Of a stretch of 64,000 nucleotides of DNA, positions 4,103 to 37,198 are shown piece by piece. The notes beneath the pieces are model-generated. The model did no database searches and was not told the DNA's origin. It saw only the letters and a program-made list of their open reading frames with translations. Every line of letters begins with the position of its first letter. The first letter of the stretch is position 1. A program made the position numbers and the translations under genes. This DNA is from Thalassospira sp. MCCC 1A01148. Lineage in GTDB: Bacteria > Pseudomonadota > Alphaproteobacteria > Rhodospirillales > Thalassospiraceae. The stretch is taken from positions 62,001 through 126,000 of the forward strand of contig NZ_LPVZ01000019.1 of the NCBI RefSeq assembly GCF_001613795.1, given 5' to 3'.

Positions 4103-5095
4103 ATGCCCACGATCAGAATTCTGACCGAAACAGACCTGCGCAAGGTCATTGATCTGGACATGGATGCCATTGATTGCGTCGAAGGCGCATTTAACGCCCT
4201 TGCCACGCAGGACGTCCGCATGCCGCCGATCCTGCGTCTGGATATTGATGAATATAATGGCGAAGTCGATGTCAAAACCGCCTATGTGCCGGGTATTGAT
4301 AGCTTCGCCATCAAAATCAGCCCCGGCTTCTTTGACAATCCCAAGCTCGGCCTGCCATCGGTTAATGGTTTGATGAACCTGTTTTCATCCAGGACCGGCC
4401 TTTTGGAGGCCGTCTTGCTTGATAACGGCTATCTGACCGATGTGCGAACCGCTGCCGCAGGCGGTGTGGCCGCCAAACATCTCGCCCGTGAAGATGCCAA
4501 ACATGCCACCATTTATGGTGCGGGTGTTCAGGCGCGCCTTCAGCTAAAGGCACTGACACTGGTACGCGATATCAGTTCGGCCACCATTTGGGCCCGCGAC
4601 CTTGCCAAGGCCGAAACCTGCGCGAAAAAGGCATCCCTTGAACTGGGTATTCCGGTCACGGCCACCGCGGATGGCAAGGACGCCGCAAACACCGCGGATA
4701 TCATCGTCACCACGACGCCTGCGCGCGAACCGGTTCTGATGGCCGATTGGGTCAGACCCGGTACGCATGTGACCGCCATGGGGTCGGATGCCGAACATAA
4801 AAACGAAATTGATCCTGCCCTGATCGGGCAGGCCGACCTTTATGTCAGCGACAGTCAGGCACAAACGCGTATCCTTGGCGAACTGCACCACGCCATTGAT
4901 GCCGGCACCGTGCCCTCAGACGCGACATTGCCAGAACTCGGCCAGATCATTGCCAAATCCTTGACCGGCAGAACATCTGCAGGTCAGATTACGGTCTGTG
5001 ATTTGACCGGAACCGGTGTTCAGGACACCGCGATCGCCACCCTCGCCCGTCACCGCTGTGATGCAGCCGGTGCAGGGGTCGAGATTAATTCGTAA
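4103..5095 (+). CDS. eutC: Ectoine utilization protein EutC (ornithine cyclodeaminase / mu-crystallin family)
   Basis: A 330-residue ornithine cyclodeaminase-fold protein. The NAD(P)-binding motif GAGVQA is at 139-144 and the family stretch LTDVRTAAAG at 111-120. In hydroxyectoine users EutC acts with EutB, probably as the reductase that yields ectoine from the dehydrated intermediate. The ribosome binding site GGAG at 4091-4094 supports the start. The gene follows eutB by 5 bp and precedes doeA by 57 bp. A true ornithine cyclodeaminase cannot be excluded from sequence alone, but the neighbours argue against it. Confidence 0.87.
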   Translation: MPTIRILTETDLRKVIDLDMDAIDCVEGAFNALATQDVRMPPILRLDIDEYNGEVDVKTAYVPGIDSFAIKISPGFFDNPKLGLPSVNGLMNLFSSRTGLLEAVLLDNGYLTDVRTAAAGGVAAKHLAREDAKHATIYGAGVQARLQLKALTLVRDISSATIWARDLAKAETCAKKASLELGIPVTATADGKDAANTADIIVTTTPAREPVLMADWVRPGTHVTAMGSDAEHKNEIDPALIGQADLYVSDSQAQTRILGELHHAIDAGTVPSDATLPELGQIIAKSLTGRTSAGQITVCDLTGTGVQDTAIATLARHRCDAAGAGVEINS

Positions 5096-5152
5096 CAACA
5101 AAAGGAAAATGGGTCAGGTAGCTGAAACCCCGCCTTTATCTGGAGGCCTGCG

Positions 5153-6334
5153 ATGAGCCAGGTAGAATTGAATTTCACGCGTGAGGAATACGCCGAACGC
5201 CTGGAGAAAACCAAAAAAGCCATGGTGGAAAAGGGCATCGATCTTCTGATCGTGACCGATCCGTCAAACATGGCCTGGCTGACCGGCTATGACGGCTGGT
5301 CCTTTTATGTCCATCAATGTGTGCTGGTTCCAATTGAAGACGACCCGGTCTGGTTCGGGCGTTCGCAGGATGCCAACGGTGCAAAACGCACGGTCTATAT
5401 GCCCCATGACCGCATCATCCCGTATGCGGACTACTATGTGCAATCGACCACGCACCACCCGATGGACTATCTTGCCGAGGTGATTGAACATCGCTGCTGG
5501 GCATCGCGTCGCATTGGCGTGGAAATGGATAACTACTATTTCTCTGCCAAGGCTTTCTTGCAGCTTCAGACCCATCTGCCAAACGCCAAGTTTTCCGATG
5601 CCACCGCACTGGTGAACTGGCAGCGTGCGGTAAAGTCCGAGACCGAAATCTTTTATATGCGTCAGGCGGCCCGCATCGTCGAAAACATGCATGAACGCAT
5701 TTTTGAAATCGTCGAACCGGGCATGAAAAAGAACGAACTGGTGGCGGAAATCTTCCGTACCGGCATCGCGGGCATCGACGGAATTGGCGGGGATTATCCT
5801 GCCATCGTGCCGCTTCTGCCGTCGGGGCAGGATGCCAGCGCACCCCACCTGACCTGGGATGAAAAACCCATTCCGGCCAATGCCGGCACGTTCTTTGAGA
5901 TCGCCGGTTGCTATCGTCGCTATCATGCACCGCTGTCACGCACGGTTTACCTTGGCGATCCCGATCAACGGTTCCTGGATGCCGAAAGTGCCCTGATCGA
6001 AGGCCTTCAGGCAGGGCTTGAAGCCGCCAAACCGGGCAATGTCTGCGAAGACATCGCCATTGCCTTCTTTGGGGTCTTGCAGAAATTCGGCATCGAAAAA
6101 GACAGCCGTTGTGGCTATCCGATCGGGCTTTCTTATCCGCCCGATTGGGGCGAACGCACCATGAGCCTGCGTCCCGGTGACCGCACGGTTCTTGAACCGG
6201 GCATGACGTTCCACTTCATGCCGGGCCTTTGGTTTGATGACTGGGGCATCGAGATCACCGAAAGCATGATGATTACCGAAACCGGGTCAAAAACCCTGAC
6301 CAGCTATCCGCGACAGCTGTTTGTCAAAAACTGA
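5153..6334 (+). CDS. doeA: Ectoine hydrolase DoeA/EutD (creatinase-like M24 fold)
   Basis: A 393-residue creatinase/prolidase-fold protein, close to the usual length of DoeA (about 400). It opens the ectoine ring to N-acetyl-diaminobutyrate. The canonical metal ligands of M24 peptidases are missing: where the family has the D-x(n)-SD-x-TR pattern, this protein reads FFEIAGCYRRYHAPLSRT (248-264). Loss of the metal site fits what is reported for ectoine hydrolases, which use a glutamate nucleophile; Glu249 is a candidate for that role by position. GGAGG about 8 bp upstream supports the start. It lies between eutC and doeB in one transcription unit. Confidence 0.92.
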   Translation: MSQVELNFTREEYAERLEKTKKAMVEKGIDLLIVTDPSNMAWLTGYDGWSFYVHQCVLVPIEDDPVWFGRSQDANGAKRTVYMPHDRIIPYADYYVQSTTHHPMDYLAEVIEHRCWASRRIGVEMDNYYFSAKAFLQLQTHLPNAKFSDATALVNWQRAVKSETEIFYMRQAARIVENMHERIFEIVEPGMKKNELVAEIFRTGIAGIDGIGGDYPAIVPLLPSGQDASAPHLTWDEKPIPANAGTFFEIAGCYRRYHAPLSRTVYLGDPDQRFLDAESALIEGLQAGLEAAKPGNVCEDIAIAFFGVLQKFGIEKDSRCGYPIGLSYPPDWGERTMSLRPGDRTVLEPGMTFHFMPGLWFDDWGIEITESMMITETGSKTLTSYPRQLFVKN

Positions 6335-29709: not shown

Positions 29710-30786
29710 GTGCCGCGCGTTCGGAAGCAAAACGAAACCATGTCGATTGCCCGGCTGGCCAAACATCTTGGTTTGTCCGAGGGAACCGTTTCGCGCGCGC
29801 TTAACAATTATCCCGATATCGCCGCAAAGACCGTCGCCCGTGTGCGCAAGGCCGCCGATGAGCTGGGCTATCGCCCCTCGACCACCGCACGGCGTCTTGC
29901 CCGTGGCGTGGTGGAAACCATCGGCTTTGTCCTGCCCGCCCGCGACGGCCATCAGATTGATCCGTTTCTGGCCGAAATTCTCGATGGTCTTGCCACCGAA
30001 CTTGCCCTTTCAGACTGGGACTTGCTGGTCTCCGCCGTTCCCGATGGTCATGACGAGGTCGAAGTCATGGACCGCCTGATCCGCTCAGCCAAGGTCGGCG
30101 GATTTGTTGTTGCCCGCACCAAACGCCATGATCCGCGCATCGATTTTTTGCGCACATCCCACATCCCGTTTGTGGCCCAGGGGCGCACCGAAAACTGCGA
30201 AGACTATGCATGGCTTGATATCGACAACGAAAAGGCCTTTGTCGATGCCGTGAATTACCTTGTCGGTCTTGGGCATCGCAAGATCGCGTTTCTTGGCGGC
30301 GATCCTGAACTCAATTACGCATGGCAACGACGCGCCGGCTATCTTGCCGCAGTCAGTGCCAATGGTTGCGATCTTCCATCGGGCTACCTGCATGACGGCA
30401 TCACCAACGAACTGGCCGCGCGCGATGCGATTTCAGAAATCCTGAAACACCCGGATCGTCCGACCGCCCTTCTGTGCGTCACCGATGCGGTTGCCATTGG
30501 GGCAATGCACGCATTGGCGCATGCCGGTATCGACGTCGGATCGGAAATGTCCGTGATCGGTTTTGATGGCCTGCCCATGGGCGAAGCCATCCATCCCGGC
30601 CTGACGACCATGTCGCAGGCCAGCTATCAGATCGGCCGCGAAGTCGGCCGGATCGTTGTCTCGCAGGCCAACGAACCTGCATCGGAATTTTCCCAAATCC
30701 TGTGGGAAGCATCGCTGACCGTCCGTGGGTCAGCCAACCCGCCAGTAACGAAACTGGCAGAAAATGCCAAGGGAGGCATCTCATGA
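29710..30786 (+). CDS. LacI-family regulator, first gene of the osmolyte-type ABC operon
   Basis: A 358-residue LacI/GalR protein. The helix-turn-helix (SIARLAKHLGLSEGTVSRAL, about 12-31) and the sensor domain (TIGFVLPARDG equivalent near 70; SVIGFDGLPMGEAIHPG near 280) are clear. The start is GTG 29710, with GGAGG at 29701-29705; ATG 29740 is an alternative that would trim only 10 residues. Its stop overlaps the start of the binding-protein gene (ATGA), so regulator and transporter share one transcript. It probably binds the two operators at 29334-29384. Confidence 0.9.
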   Translation: MPRVRKQNETMSIARLAKHLGLSEGTVSRALNNYPDIAAKTVARVRKAADELGYRPSTTARRLARGVVETIGFVLPARDGHQIDPFLAEILDGLATELALSDWDLLVSAVPDGHDEVEVMDRLIRSAKVGGFVVARTKRHDPRIDFLRTSHIPFVAQGRTENCEDYAWLDIDNEKAFVDAVNYLVGLGHRKIAFLGGDPELNYAWQRRAGYLAAVSANGCDLPSGYLHDGITNELAARDAISEILKHPDRPTALLCVTDAVAIGAMHALAHAGIDVGSEMSVIGFDGLPMGEAIHPGLTTMSQASYQIGREVGRIVVSQANEPASEFSQILWEASLTVRGSANPPVTKLAENAKGGIS

Positions 30787-32129
30787 AAACAAGGTTTACG
30801 CGTGCACTGACACTCGCAGCCGCTGGTCTGCTGGTCTCGACCAGCATGGCAAGTGCACAACTGCGCTTCTGGACCACCGAAGAACAACCCGAACGACTGG
30901 CCAAACAAGAAGAAATGGCCAAGGCGTTCGAAGCCAAAACCGGCACTTCTGTTGAAGTCATTCCGGTCACGGAAACCGAACTCGGAACCCGCGCCACCGC
31001 GGCCTATGCCGCCGGTGATCTGCCAGACGTCATTTACCTGACCCTGCAATATGTCCTGCCCTGGTCCGAGGCCGGCATCCTCGATACCGAAGCCAATAAC
31101 GAAGTCGTCAACCAGCTGGGCAAGGACACCTTTGCACCCGCCGCCCTTGGCATGGCCGATTTCGATGGCGAAGTCGCGGCTGTACCGTCTGATGGCTGGA
31201 CCCAGATGGTGCTTTATCGCAAGGACCTGTTTGACGAGGCGGGCCTTGAGGCCCCCAACACCTATGGCAATATCGTCAAGGCCATCGAGGCGCTGCACAA
31301 CCCGCCCGAAATGTACGGCTTTGTCGCTGCGACCAAAATTGACGAAAACTTCATGAGCCAGGTGCTCGAACATGTCTTCCTGGCAAACGGCGCAACCCCG
31401 GTTTCCGCCGATGGATCGGTCGGCTTTGACAAGGCAAAGCTCGTCGAGGCGCTTGAGTTTTATAAAAAACTCGCCAAGGCCTCGCCTCCGGGGGATCTGT
31501 ACTGGAAACAGTCACGCGAAGTCTATTTCGCAGGCAAGGCGGCCATGATCATCTGGTCACCCTTCATCCTTGATGAACTGGCAGGCCTGCGTGACAGCGC
31601 CCCGCCCACCATCAACAATGACCCGACCTCGGGCGAACTGGCATCGAAAACCGGTGTTGTCACCCGCCTGATGGGCCCGTCCAATCCGAATGGCGCAGCA
31701 TGGGGTGACATTCGCTATTTCGGTATCACTAACGATGCTGATACCGACCCGGCGGAAGAATTCGTCAAATTCTCGCTGGATGAAGGCTACACCAGCACGC
31801 TTTCCATCGCGCCCGAAGGCAAATTCCCGGTCCGTCATGGCACCGCCGAAGATCCCGAGAAATTTGTCAAGGCATGGTCGACCCTGCCGGTTGGTGTTGA
31901 TCGCAAAAAGCCGCTGTCAGAGCTTTATGACCCGGCCGTCATCACCGACATCGTTTCCGGCCTTGAAACCGCAAACCGTTGGGGTGTCGCCGAAGGCCAA
32001 TTGGCCATGGCATCGCGCATCATCAACAGTCAGGTGATCAACCGTCTCGTCCGCGAATATATCGACGGCGAACGTGACGCATCGGAAACGGCGGACCTGA
32101 TCAACGAGGAAATCGCCGCTATCAACTAA
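30783..32129 (+). CDS. ABC transporter extracellular solute-binding protein, family 1
   Basis: A 448-residue binding protein with a signal peptide (MKTRFTRALTLAAAGLLVST, cleavage near ASA-QL). The mature N-terminus LRFWTTEEQPERLAKQEEM and the later AGKAAMIIWSPFILDELAGL are typical of MalE/UgpB-class proteins that bind di- and oligosaccharides or glycosides. GGGAGG lies 6 bp before the ATG. The downstream GH63-type hydrolase suggests a glycosylated small molecule such as glucosylglycerate, mannosylglycerate or glucosylglycerol; this is inference. Confidence 0.88.
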   Translation: MKTRFTRALTLAAAGLLVSTSMASAQLRFWTTEEQPERLAKQEEMAKAFEAKTGTSVEVIPVTETELGTRATAAYAAGDLPDVIYLTLQYVLPWSEAGILDTEANNEVVNQLGKDTFAPAALGMADFDGEVAAVPSDGWTQMVLYRKDLFDEAGLEAPNTYGNIVKAIEALHNPPEMYGFVAATKIDENFMSQVLEHVFLANGATPVSADGSVGFDKAKLVEALEFYKKLAKASPPGDLYWKQSREVYFAGKAAMIIWSPFILDELAGLRDSAPPTINNDPTSGELASKTGVVTRLMGPSNPNGAAWGDIRYFGITNDADTDPAEEFVKFSLDEGYTSTLSIAPEGKFPVRHGTAEDPEKFVKAWSTLPVGVDRKKPLSELYDPAVITDIVSGLETANRWGVAEGQLAMASRIINSQVINRLVREYIDGERDASETADLINEEIAAIN

Positions 32130-32195: not shown

Positions 32196-33515
32196 ATGAC
32201 GATGTCCCGAACAACCAAGACATCCCCGGCAACCGCCCCCCCCAACGGCCGAAAAACCGGGCTCGGCCCGATGGCGCGGCGCGAAGCGCGGCTTGCGCTC
32301 TGGATGCTGGCCCCGACATTTCTGATTGTGATGGGCATCGTCCTGTTTCCGTTGCTTGCCAATTTCTGGATTTCGGTCAAGCCGGTCACATTGTCTGACT
32401 TGCGCCCGCCAACCCCTGTTGTGTCCGAACGCGTGCGGGGGGATTTCGATGTTGCCGGGCAGGAATTTGAAATCCAGTACCGCATGCGCAATTCATCGCG
32501 CAAAGGCGACATTACCGACGTCGTCCTGACCGATACATTGCCCGCGGGCATTACGGTCATTGATCCGGGGGATGTTTGTACGGTCACGGGGGCCGCGGTC
32601 CGCTGTGCCCTTGATGGCCTTCCGGCCGGGGAACGCACCCGACTGAAAATGACCGCTGTGGCTGATGAAACGTTTGCCGCCAACCCCGTCTCGCCGCGTG
32701 ACAGCGAACCAACCGTCACCGGCACGGCTGAAAACATTCTGACCAATAACGAATTCACCCTGGAAAACTTCGCGCGAATTTTTGATTCCCGCGAATTCTG
32801 GTCGGTGCTGTGGGTGACGATTGCCTATACGGTGTTTGGTACGCTGGGTGCCCTCGTGCTTGGCCTTTTCGCCGCCCAGATGCTCAACAAACCCTTTGCT
32901 GGCCGCTCGATCATCCGGGGGCTTTTCCTGTTTCCCTATGTCGCACCGGTCATTGCCGTTGCCTTTACATGGGTCATCCTGCTTGATCCGTTCAACGGCA
33001 CCTTCAATGCCATCTTGCAGCGCATGAACATCGCGGATGAAGGCGTAAACTTCTTTGGCCAGCGCGACATTCCCATTGATGTTTTCGGCCTGACCATCGA
33101 TTTTCCGCTGGCACTGGCAACGGTGATTGCCTTTGAAGCGTGGCGCTACTTCCCGCTGTCATTCCTGTTCATTCTGGCCCGGATGCAGTCGATATCCTCT
33201 GACATGTACGAGGCCGCCGAGGTCGATGGCGCCACGCCCTTGCAACAGTTCTGGCACATTTCCCTGCCGCAACTTCTGGGGATCCTGTCGACCCTGTTCC
33301 TGCTGCGCTTCATTTGGACGTTCAACAAGTTCGACGACATCTTCCTGCTGACCGGCGGGGCCGCGGGCACGCGCACACTCACGGTCGATGTCTATGAACA
33401 GGGCTTTGCCCTGTCCAACCTCGGGGCCGGGGCGGCAGTGGCGGTGGCCATCTTCATCCTGCTTCTGGTCTTTGCCGTGTTCTATTTCAAATTCGTCCAT
33501 CGGGAGGATTCGTAA
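32196..33515 (+). CDS. ABC sugar/osmolyte permease (MalF/UgpA type) with a DUF11-like extracytoplasmic insert
   Basis: A 439-residue permease. Helix 1 is about 35-58, then residues about 83-178 form a soluble insert with the DUF11 pattern (ITDVVLTDTLPAGITVIDPG, then VCTVTGAAVRCALDGLPAGE), and the standard permease core follows from about 200. The EAA loop (YEAAEVDGATPLQQFWHISL) is at about 338-357. Ordinary UgpA-type proteins are about 290-320 residues and lack this insert. MalF of enteric bacteria has a different periplasmic P2 domain in the loop between helices 3 and 4. The insert should face the periplasm and may contact the binding protein. The start has only a weak ribosome binding site; the next gene overlaps as TAATG. 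Confidence 0.88.
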   Translation: MTMSRTTKTSPATAPPNGRKTGLGPMARREARLALWMLAPTFLIVMGIVLFPLLANFWISVKPVTLSDLRPPTPVVSERVRGDFDVAGQEFEIQYRMRNSSRKGDITDVVLTDTLPAGITVIDPGDVCTVTGAAVRCALDGLPAGERTRLKMTAVADETFAANPVSPRDSEPTVTGTAENILTNNEFTLENFARIFDSREFWSVLWVTIAYTVFGTLGALVLGLFAAQMLNKPFAGRSIIRGLFLFPYVAPVIAVAFTWVILLDPFNGTFNAILQRMNIADEGVNFFGQRDIPIDVFGLTIDFPLALATVIAFEAWRYFPLSFLFILARMQSISSDMYEAAEVDGATPLQQFWHISLPQLLGILSTLFLLRFIWTFNKFDDIFLLTGGAAGTRTLTVDVYEQGFALSNLGAGAAVAVAIFILLLVFAVFYFKFVHREDS

Positions 33516-34744
33516 TGCGTATCGGTACGGGTCTTCTTCTGGGTCTGCTGACCGGATTGCTCTGGGGCACGATTGCGGTTGCCCTCACCGGCATTTCCCT
33601 GACCCTGATCACCGGCCTTCCGGCAACGCCGATCATATCGGCAGGTGCGCTTGGCGGGGCGGTCAATGCCGCCATCATCATGCTGCGCGCGCCCGCGGAT
33701 CGCACACCGGGGCTTTACCTTGTCGCCTTTGCTGGCGTGATCGTCTCGATGATGCTGGTATCCTTTGGCGCACCGTTCAGTCTGGCCTTATCTGAAAGTT
33801 CGCTTATTCAGGCCTTCGGCGTCGGGTTGATTGCGCTTGCCGTGACCTTTGCCAACCGCGCAGTCCTGATCGACATTCAGTCGGGCATGCTCAAACGGTA
33901 TGCGATTGATCTGGTGATTGTGCGCACACTCAAGGGCTTTGGCTTTGTGTTCTTTAGCGTGATCGTCATCCTGCCCTTCTATGTGATGGTGATGACCAGC
34001 CTCAAGAACCAGCAGGATCTGTTCCTGAACCCGCTGGATCTGTCGATTGATCTGACACAGGGCGCTGCCAGCCTGTTTGACAGCTATGTCGAACTGTTCA
34101 CCAAGTTCAATTTTGGCCGCTTCCTTCTGATTTCGACCATCGTGTCGGTCTGCACCGTTGTGATCACACTCGCCTTTTCGATCCCCGGCGCCTATGCGGT
34201 TGCGCGTTTGAAATTCCCCGGACAAACGGTGCTTTCAAGCTCGATCCTGCTGATCTATCTGGTGCCGATGATCGTTCTGGTCATCCCGCTTTATGCCGTG
34301 TTCAGTCAGCTTGGCCTGCGCAATACGGTGGTTGGCCTTCTGATCGTCTATCCGGCCACCACGGTGCCCGTGGCCCTTTACATGCTTCAGGGCTATTTCC
34401 GTGGCCTTCCGGCCGAACTGGAAGAAGCCGGTTTGATGGATGGTTTGTCGCGCTTTGGCGTGATCTGGAAAATCACCCTGCCACTCGCCTTGCCGGCCCT
34501 GGCATCGGTGTCGCTTTATGTCTTCATGATCGCCTGGAACGAATTCCTGTTTGCCTTCATGTTCCTCGATGATCCCGACATCTTCACCCTGTCACGTGGC
34601 GTGGTGTCGCTCAATTCATCCGAAGTTCCGCGCCAACATCTGATGGCCGGTGCGGTGATCGCAACGGTTCCGATCCTTGTCATCTTCCTGTGGTTTGAAC
34701 GCTTCCTTGTTCAGGGCCTCACCGCCGGGAGCGTCAAGGGATGA
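33515..34744 (+). CDS. ABC sugar/osmolyte permease (MalG/UgpE type) with an N-terminal membrane extension
   Basis: A 409-residue permease; UgpE/MalG proteins are usually about 270-300. The canonical protein begins near residue 135 (RTLKGFGFVFFSVIVILPFY), and the EAA loop is LEEAGLMDGLSRFGVIWKIT. The first 130 residues add about four hydrophobic segments (about 5-30, 38-56, 67-88 and 98-114). I do not recognise them as a known domain. The TAATG overlap with the previous gene and its GGAGG fix the start, so the extension is part of the protein. The stop overlaps the hydrolase start (ATGA). Confidence 0.88.
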   Translation: MRIGTGLLLGLLTGLLWGTIAVALTGISLTLITGLPATPIISAGALGGAVNAAIIMLRAPADRTPGLYLVAFAGVIVSMMLVSFGAPFSLALSESSLIQAFGVGLIALAVTFANRAVLIDIQSGMLKRYAIDLVIVRTLKGFGFVFFSVIVILPFYVMVMTSLKNQQDLFLNPLDLSIDLTQGAASLFDSYVELFTKFNFGRFLLISTIVSVCTVVITLAFSIPGAYAVARLKFPGQTVLSSSILLIYLVPMIVLVIPLYAVFSQLGLRNTVVGLLIVYPATTVPVALYMLQGYFRGLPAELEEAGLMDGLSRFGVIWKITLPLALPALASVSLYVFMIAWNEFLFAFMFLDDPDIFTLSRGVVSLNSSEVPRQHLMAGAVIATVPILVIFLWFERFLVQGLTAGSVKG

Positions 34745-36132
34745 GCCAAATGAGCCAGGCAAGCCTTTCACTCGACCAGCTTACGGGTACTAACAGACGT
34801 GCGGCCGACATCCTGCTTGGCAATGATCGCGGCGGCTATACCGTGCCAAGTGCCAAGCTCTATCCGTTCCAGTGGAACTGGGATAGTGCGCTGGTTGCCC
34901 TTGGCTTTTCCGTATTTGATCCCGATCGTGCCTGGCAGGAAATCGAAAGCCTGCTTTCCGCGCAATGGGACAACGGCATGGTGCCGCACATCATTTTCTG
35001 GAAAGAGGAAAAAAGCTACTTCCCCGGACCGGAACAGTGGGGCACGACCGACATCGCCAAAAGCCCGCCAACATCGGGCATTACCCAGCCGCCCGTTGCC
35101 GCAACCGTGATCGAACGGCTTCTGGCCGAAGACATTGCTGCCCATCGCGACCGGGCGGAAAAGCTTCTGCCCAAACTTGATCGCTGGCATCAATGGTTCC
35201 TTGATGCCCGCGACCCGGATGGGCGCGGTGTGGTTGCGATCATGCATCCGTGGGAAAGTGGCCGCGATAATCTGCCCGACTGGGATCGCCCCTTATCCTT
35301 TATCGATACCACAGGGGTTGGCACCTATCACCGCCGCGACACCGATATCGTCAATCAGGACGAACGTCCGAAAAACGACGACTATGATCACTACATGGCG
35401 CTGGTCAGGTTTGGTCGTGATTGCAATTGGGATACAGAAATCATTGCCCGCGATTGCCCGTTCTGGGTGGCCGAACCGGGCATGAATGCCATATTGCGCC
35501 GGGCCGAACGCGACCTGATCAATATGGCAACGCTTCTGGGGCAGGATGATATCGCCGCCCGCGCCAAAGCCCGCCTTGCCCGTCTCGATGCCGGGTTTGA
35601 ACAGCTTTGGTCTGAGACAGTTGGTGGCTATGTCACGCTTGATTTGCGCCGTGATGAACACGCCACCGGCCTGACATCAGGAAGCTGGCTTGCCCTGTTC
35701 GCTGGCGCGGTCGAACCGGCCCGTGCGGGCAAGATGGCCGCAACGCTTTCACATTGGCTTTCGCAGGTCGAACACAGCGTTCCAAGCTTTGATCCCGGCC
35801 ACGAACTGTTTGATTCCATTCGCTATTGGCGCGGTCCGGTCTGGGCCATGATCAACTGGATGATCGCAACCGGCTTGTCTGAGCATGGCGAGACCGACCT
35901 TGCTGATCGCATCCGGCGTGACACGCAGTCCCTTATCGAACTTTCGGAATTTCGTGAATATTTCTGCCCGGTGACCGGTCGTGGCGGCGGGGGCACCGAC
36001 TTTTCGTGGACGGCATCCATGTCGCTTTATTGGGCGGCCCGTCCCGAAGCCTTGCCAACCGCATCACGCCTGTCCCCATCGACCGCACCATCAGCCTCAC
36101 CAACCGGCACCGCAGATCAGGAGAACACATAA
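34741..36132 (+). CDS. Glycoside hydrolase, GH63/MgH-type (alpha/alpha-barrel), probably for a glycosylated osmolyte
   Basis: A 463-residue (alpha/alpha)6-barrel hydrolase. [16 protein letters not shown] (about 41-56), [14 protein letters not shown] (169-182) and [20 protein letters not shown] (404-423) match the family of mannosylglycerate and glucosylglycerate hydrolases. Asp176 and Glu406 are the likely acid and base. No signal peptide is seen, so it acts in the cytoplasm on imported substrate. It is embedded between permease and ATPase genes, overlapping the former by 4 bp. The low-complexity Ser/Pro/Thr tail (about 435-463) is not part of the barrel. A trehalase-like activity is the main alternative. 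Confidence 0.8.
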
Positions 36133-36133
36133 A

Positions 36134-37198
<1,065 letters not shown>

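Follow-up and report, generated by a model that had tools for sequence, protein, structure and literature searches.

A DUF11/CLIPPER-like domain inserted after helix 1 of a MalF-type ABC permease

The permF operon

The window, the whole 64,000-nucleotide stretch of Thalassospira sp. MCCC 1A01148 DNA that was analysed, contains an operon with genes in the order LacI-family regulator, substrate-binding protein, permF, permG, GH63-like hydrolase and ATPase, an order that is conserved with small variations. Start/stop codon overlaps join the successive genes from permF through the ATPase in the window, and the binding-protein gene adjoins permF in 98 of 98 loci. The features are listed by position in the window.

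29710..30786, + strand: LacI-family regulator (domain models)
30783..32129, + strand: substrate-binding protein (SBP_bac_8), with which the insert presumably pairs (Pfam, synteny)
32196..33515, + strand: permF, MalF/UgpA-type ABC permease, 439 aa (ORF call, Pfam, motif reading)
32292..32378, + strand: transmembrane helix 1 of permF, about residues 33–61 (hydropathy; AlphaFold2 helix 25–61)
32403..32735, + strand: DUF11/CLIPPER-like beta-sandwich inserted in permF, residues 70–180 (Pfam, profiles, AlphaFold2, fold search)
32427..32429, + strand: Glu78 of permF, where adhesin DUF11 repeats have the isopeptide lysine (ortholog alignment, hhalign)
32577..32579, + strand: Cys128 of permF, invariant in 58 orthologs (alignment)
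32604..32606, + strand: Cys137 of permF, invariant in 58 orthologs (alignment)
32853..33485, + strand: transport core of permF, BPD_transp_1, residues 220–430 (Pfam)
33515..34744, + strand: permG, MalG-type permease extended at its N-terminus by ~140 residues (domain models, alignment)
34741..36132, + strand: GH63-type hydrolase, MGH1-like (domain models)
36131..37198, + strand: UgpC/MalK-type ATPase (domain models)

The permF reading frame is intact in the ORF list of the window. Residues 220–430 matched BPD_transp_1 in Pfam with 62.5 bits against a curated cut-off of 26.4, and the EAA motif, EAAEVDGATP, can be read at residues 339–348. Because the core match lies above the cut-off and is accompanied by the EAA motif and a conserved operon, permF falls in the type I importer permease class, and in this sugar importer it represents the MalF-type subunit. 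Its orthologs are named 'sugar ABC transporter permease' in RefSeq. The hydrolase matched PF22422 with 357.8 bits, and its nearest NCBIfam model, glucosylglycerate hydrolase, was reached with 334.6 bits against an equivalog cut-off of 550. Since the hydrolase is nearest to this model, albeit below its cut-off, the substrate of the importer is likely to be a small glycoside, and the enzyme suggests uptake of a compatible-solute glycoside.

The permG product has an extension of its own (33515–33949), in which several hydrophobic segments, corresponding to roughly four helices, lie ahead of the MalG-like core. In 71 of 80 orthologs the alignment began close to the N-terminus, the Nonomuraea relative is without the extension, and no Pfam family matched it.

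Homology and predicted structure of the insert

In permF the insert forms a separate domain that follows helix 1 and precedes the transport core. With the whole protein as the query, DUF11 was matched in Pfam at residues 88–185 below the threshold (E 4.6e-4), and the insert alone scored 24.5 bits (E 3.5e-5) against a curated cut-off of 24.6. Taken singly, this match, the sole DUF11 match in the source genome, is real but borderline. Across the family, 50 of 58 non-redundant inserts matched DUF11 at E <= 0.1 (best 5e-10), and 40 of the 58 whole permF orthologs matched it as well (best 6.9e-9).

In the reverse direction, a profile built from the 58 inserts was searched against 398 Pseudomonadota genomes at E <= 1e-3 per genome, a search in which about 0.4 chance matches are expected. 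The profile retrieved permF in 16 of the genomes, and the remaining 14 loci all encode DUF11 or DUF7933 proteins, mostly as large open frames; 13 of them exceed the DUF11 cut-off and the other is a member of DUF7933, a related family. These are surface proteins of the DUF11 type. Several of the 14 loci are tandem repeats with the spaced cysteine pair of the insert, and alignment of the insert profile with one of them gave E 3.9e-6 over 91 columns (hhalign). A sequence search of the PDB with the insert or its profile as the query gave no significant match, and 9ifr was missed. The Pfam and profile comparisons, more than a fold ranking, which alone would not prove homology, identify the permF insert as related, though divergent, to DUF11 (PF01345), the family that was renamed CLIPPER in 2025 and for which the crystal structure 9IFR is available (PMC12617251).

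For the insert AlphaFold2 predicted an eight-stranded sandwich, in keeping with the CnaA-like beta-sandwich of 7–9 strands that characterizes DUF11/CLIPPER domains. In the full permF model, built on the ortholog alignment, the pLDDT of the insert was mostly 94–97, whereas the membrane core was modelled with only moderate confidence (mean pLDDT of the whole 74.4, pTM 0.54); the insert modelled alone had eight strands and a mean pLDDT of 90.3. The top fold match in VIA-align was 9ifr both times, with Z 11.2 and 10.7, an rmsd of 2.4 and 17% identity over 104–105 residues, and this structure was found by the fold search only. Other beta-sandwiches, those of AP-2 mu, a TRAP subunit, CBM2 and integrin, ranked after 9ifr, within Z 1. 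The earlier note had proposed a DUF11-like domain at about residues 83–178. The domain, its location and its kinship are confirmed by the family-wide Pfam matches, the reverse profile, the model and 9ifr, while the proposed limits proved slightly short, as the model and residue conservation place them at about 70–180.

The insert shares with DUF11/CLIPPER domains (9IFR) the fold, the DTLPxG motif, the YxxxN strand and the Asp of the catalytic position, D113 in permF, which is the Asp of the DTLP motif. The TNTA of the adhesin repeats is TGTA in the insert. The paper on the CLIPPER structure reports an isopeptide bond between Lys715 and Asn806, with Asp748, and states that the bond is missing from some DUF11 domains (PMC12617251). 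In permF, the Lys–Asn pair, common but not universal in DUF11, is absent, since the lysine position is occupied by Glu in 57 of the 58 non-redundant orthologs on which all residue counts are based. Cys128 and Cys137 probably form a disulfide, and many adhesin DUF11 repeats likewise contain a C-x8-C pair. We infer that the insert would have this disulfide instead of an isopeptide bond. Residues E78, Y95, R96, R98, N99, S101, D113, P116 and R147 are nearly invariant among the 58 orthologs, as are the linkers KPV.L.DLR.P and N.LT..FTL.NF across permF orthologs; the charged residues of this set are specific to the permease and are not kept by the adhesin repeats. A further difference is that DUF11/CLIPPER proteins are long surface proteins, often with tandem stalk repeats, whereas the permF insert is a single copy in an inner-membrane permease. 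This takes the known range of DUF11/CLIPPER domains beyond adhesin stalks and into a membrane transporter.

Distribution of the insert and comparison with MalF P2

All 98 orthologous loci examined, defined as permF orthologs of >50% identity with a few organisms counted twice, carry the insert, so it is not a peculiarity of one gene but is fixed in the whole orthologous group. When one genome per species was scanned, at least 80 loci proved to encode permF relatives, all aligned through the insert, and additional genus-level orthologs were present among 60 related genomes. A full-length permF profile scored 664–755 bits in 16 of the 398 Pseudomonadota genomes and then <=185 bits, and the matches at <=185 bits cover the core only. 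These 16 genomes are identical to those found with the insert profile. The insert was found in no other permease among the 398 genomes. The permF-type importer occurs in many, largely marine, alphaproteobacteria: most orthologs among the matches listed are alphaproteobacterial (Thalassospira, Roseibium, Stappia, Rhodobacteraceae and SAR116), and a few are gammaproteobacterial (Leucothrix and Granulosicoccaceae).

The closest outgroup permeases found in plasmid records are those of Nonomuraea (47% core identity) and haloarchaea (41–43%), and in both the first loop is short and without a domain. The simplest reading is that a single insertion occurred after the split from relatives of this type and has been retained since. 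Recent acquisition of foreign DNA was considered and rejected, as the GC content of the insert region resembles that of its surroundings and its presence in all orthologs points to an old insertion. The importer of Nonomuraea gerenzanensis (L142, match 5001–5621) shows ~47% identity in the cores of both permeases and 39% for the binding protein, and a partial GH63-like match lies on the opposite strand of this locus; the importer would make a plausible sister system, lacking the insert, against which to compare. More generally, UgpA/SugA-type permeases (7cad chain A and the Nonomuraea relative) resemble permF in their six-helix core and EAA motif, with an alignment that spans the core and helix 1, but they have a short first periplasmic loop without a domain.

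Detailed knowledge of large periplasmic domains in ABC importers comes mainly from P2 of E. coli MalF, a domain that has been described as Ig-like and that, in the title of Grote et al. 2009, is said to communicate substrate availability to MalK. In Pfam, P2 is PF14785 (residues 100–260). The domain spans residues 91–271, and its segment 240–249 is in direct contact with MalE (PMC3150292). MalF is, like permF, a type I importer permease with an alignable core, permF 190–431 aligning with MalF 262–506. A single helix precedes the insert in permF, and TM3–TM4 of MalF correspond to TM1–TM2 of permF, MalF having two further N-terminal helices. As the helices that follow the two domains align, the insertion sites are equivalent, and MalF has a folded periplasmic domain at the same place. 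P2 is larger, however, and belongs to another Pfam family. No similarity between the insert and E. coli P2 was detectable (hhalign probability 0.3%), so homology of the two is unsupported by sequence, and PF14785 was matched neither by permF or its insert nor by any of the 289 class members that were searched. The VIA-align fold matches listed did not include MalF, which is uninformative either way. The insert is thus a domain of another sequence family at the P2 site in a separate lineage. The earlier note knew of no described permease with this arrangement; this does not hold for a folded domain at the site, given MalF P2, but a DUF11-type domain there seems undescribed in the literature searched. 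A text search of part of the literature turned up no account of a permease with a DUF11 domain, and the words 'permease' and 'transporter' are absent from the CLIPPER paper (PMC12617251). The novelty seems to lie in the type of domain, which has no sequence relationship to P2, and in the fact that it is fixed within a single orthologous group.

Possible roles of the insert

The insert should face the periplasm, as the earlier note had also expected; the helix count, the two invariant cysteines and the homology to surface domains point that way. By analogy with MalF P2 at the equivalent site, we lean with modest confidence towards an independently acquired, P2-like docking domain that would present the binding protein to the permeases. 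A DUF11/CLIPPER-type Ig-like domain would have been inserted into the first periplasmic loop in an ancestor of the permF orthologous group, where, as a rigid platform stabilised by the disulfide, it would jut into the periplasm and hold or orient the loaded binding protein above permF and permG. The conserved linkers could then relay a docking signal, as MalF P2 does with MalE, and the Lys-to-Glu change may have removed the isopeptide cross-link, a permease having no need to withstand pulling. If the insert and P2 do the same job, they would constitute a natural convergence experiment on the recognition of a loaded binding protein. Against a need for docking by such a domain, many related importers function without one at this site.

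Co-divergence was compared among the operon products. The insert evolves ~3.7 times faster than the core (mean distance), and its divergence showed no link specific to the binding protein, the partial correlation given the core being 0.06, compared with 0.28 for permG and 0.36 for the ATPase. That the cytoplasmic ATPase scores highest makes the method weak and warns that it mainly measures shared history. The lack of binding-protein-specific co-divergence would accord with an insert that binds another envelope component, such as peptidoglycan, an outer-membrane protein or a periplasmic partner, and positions the importer instead of docking, and DUF11 domains are indeed known in surface and adhesin stalks (PMC12617251). 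We nevertheless regard this as improbable, as the conserved operon lacks a gene for such a partner, MalF P2 provides a precedent for docking at the same site, and DUF11 repeats are mainly stalk modules and not known binding modules. Contact with the cell wall, which the earlier note had considered possible, gained no evidence in this analysis.

An equally improbable role is that of a structural brace for the permF/permG pair without contact with the binding protein. The divergence of the insert follows permG more than the binding protein, permG has extra N-terminal helices of its own, and the Nonomuraea outgroup has neither the insert nor the extension of permG; yet the ATPase is tracked just as strongly, so that the correlation with permG probably reflects shared history, and the location of the insert suits a reach into the periplasm. 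We give the same low weight to a broader idea, that an adhesin-stalk Ig-like domain was captured as a new partner-binding device, for example a periplasmic or cell-wall tether or a brace with the helices of permG, which would alter the coupling between importer and binding protein by a route unlike that of MalF P2.

CBM-like binding of sugar by the insert, which would concentrate substrate near the importer, is very unlikely. Although CBM2 was among the fold matches (6qfs, Z 10.2–10.7), the 17–19% identity indicates no more than a shared fold. Conserved aromatic residues are not conspicuous on the surface; apart from Tyr95, the near-invariant residues are charged, and a small substrate is what the hydrolase points to. 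Chance resemblance, or an annotation or assembly artefact, might be read from the single-sequence Pfam score 0.1 bit under the curated cut-off, but is scarcely credible and was rejected on the family-wide matches, the reverse search, the model, 9ifr and conservation over 98 loci.

At the Paroceanicella profunda locus of the same importer, the GH63-type gene is missing from its usual place, and the importer is flanked by genes of the alpha-amylase (GH13-like) and dihydroxyacetone kinase families (L147:610-2310 and L147:8920-10593), which would fit a glycerol-containing glycoside.
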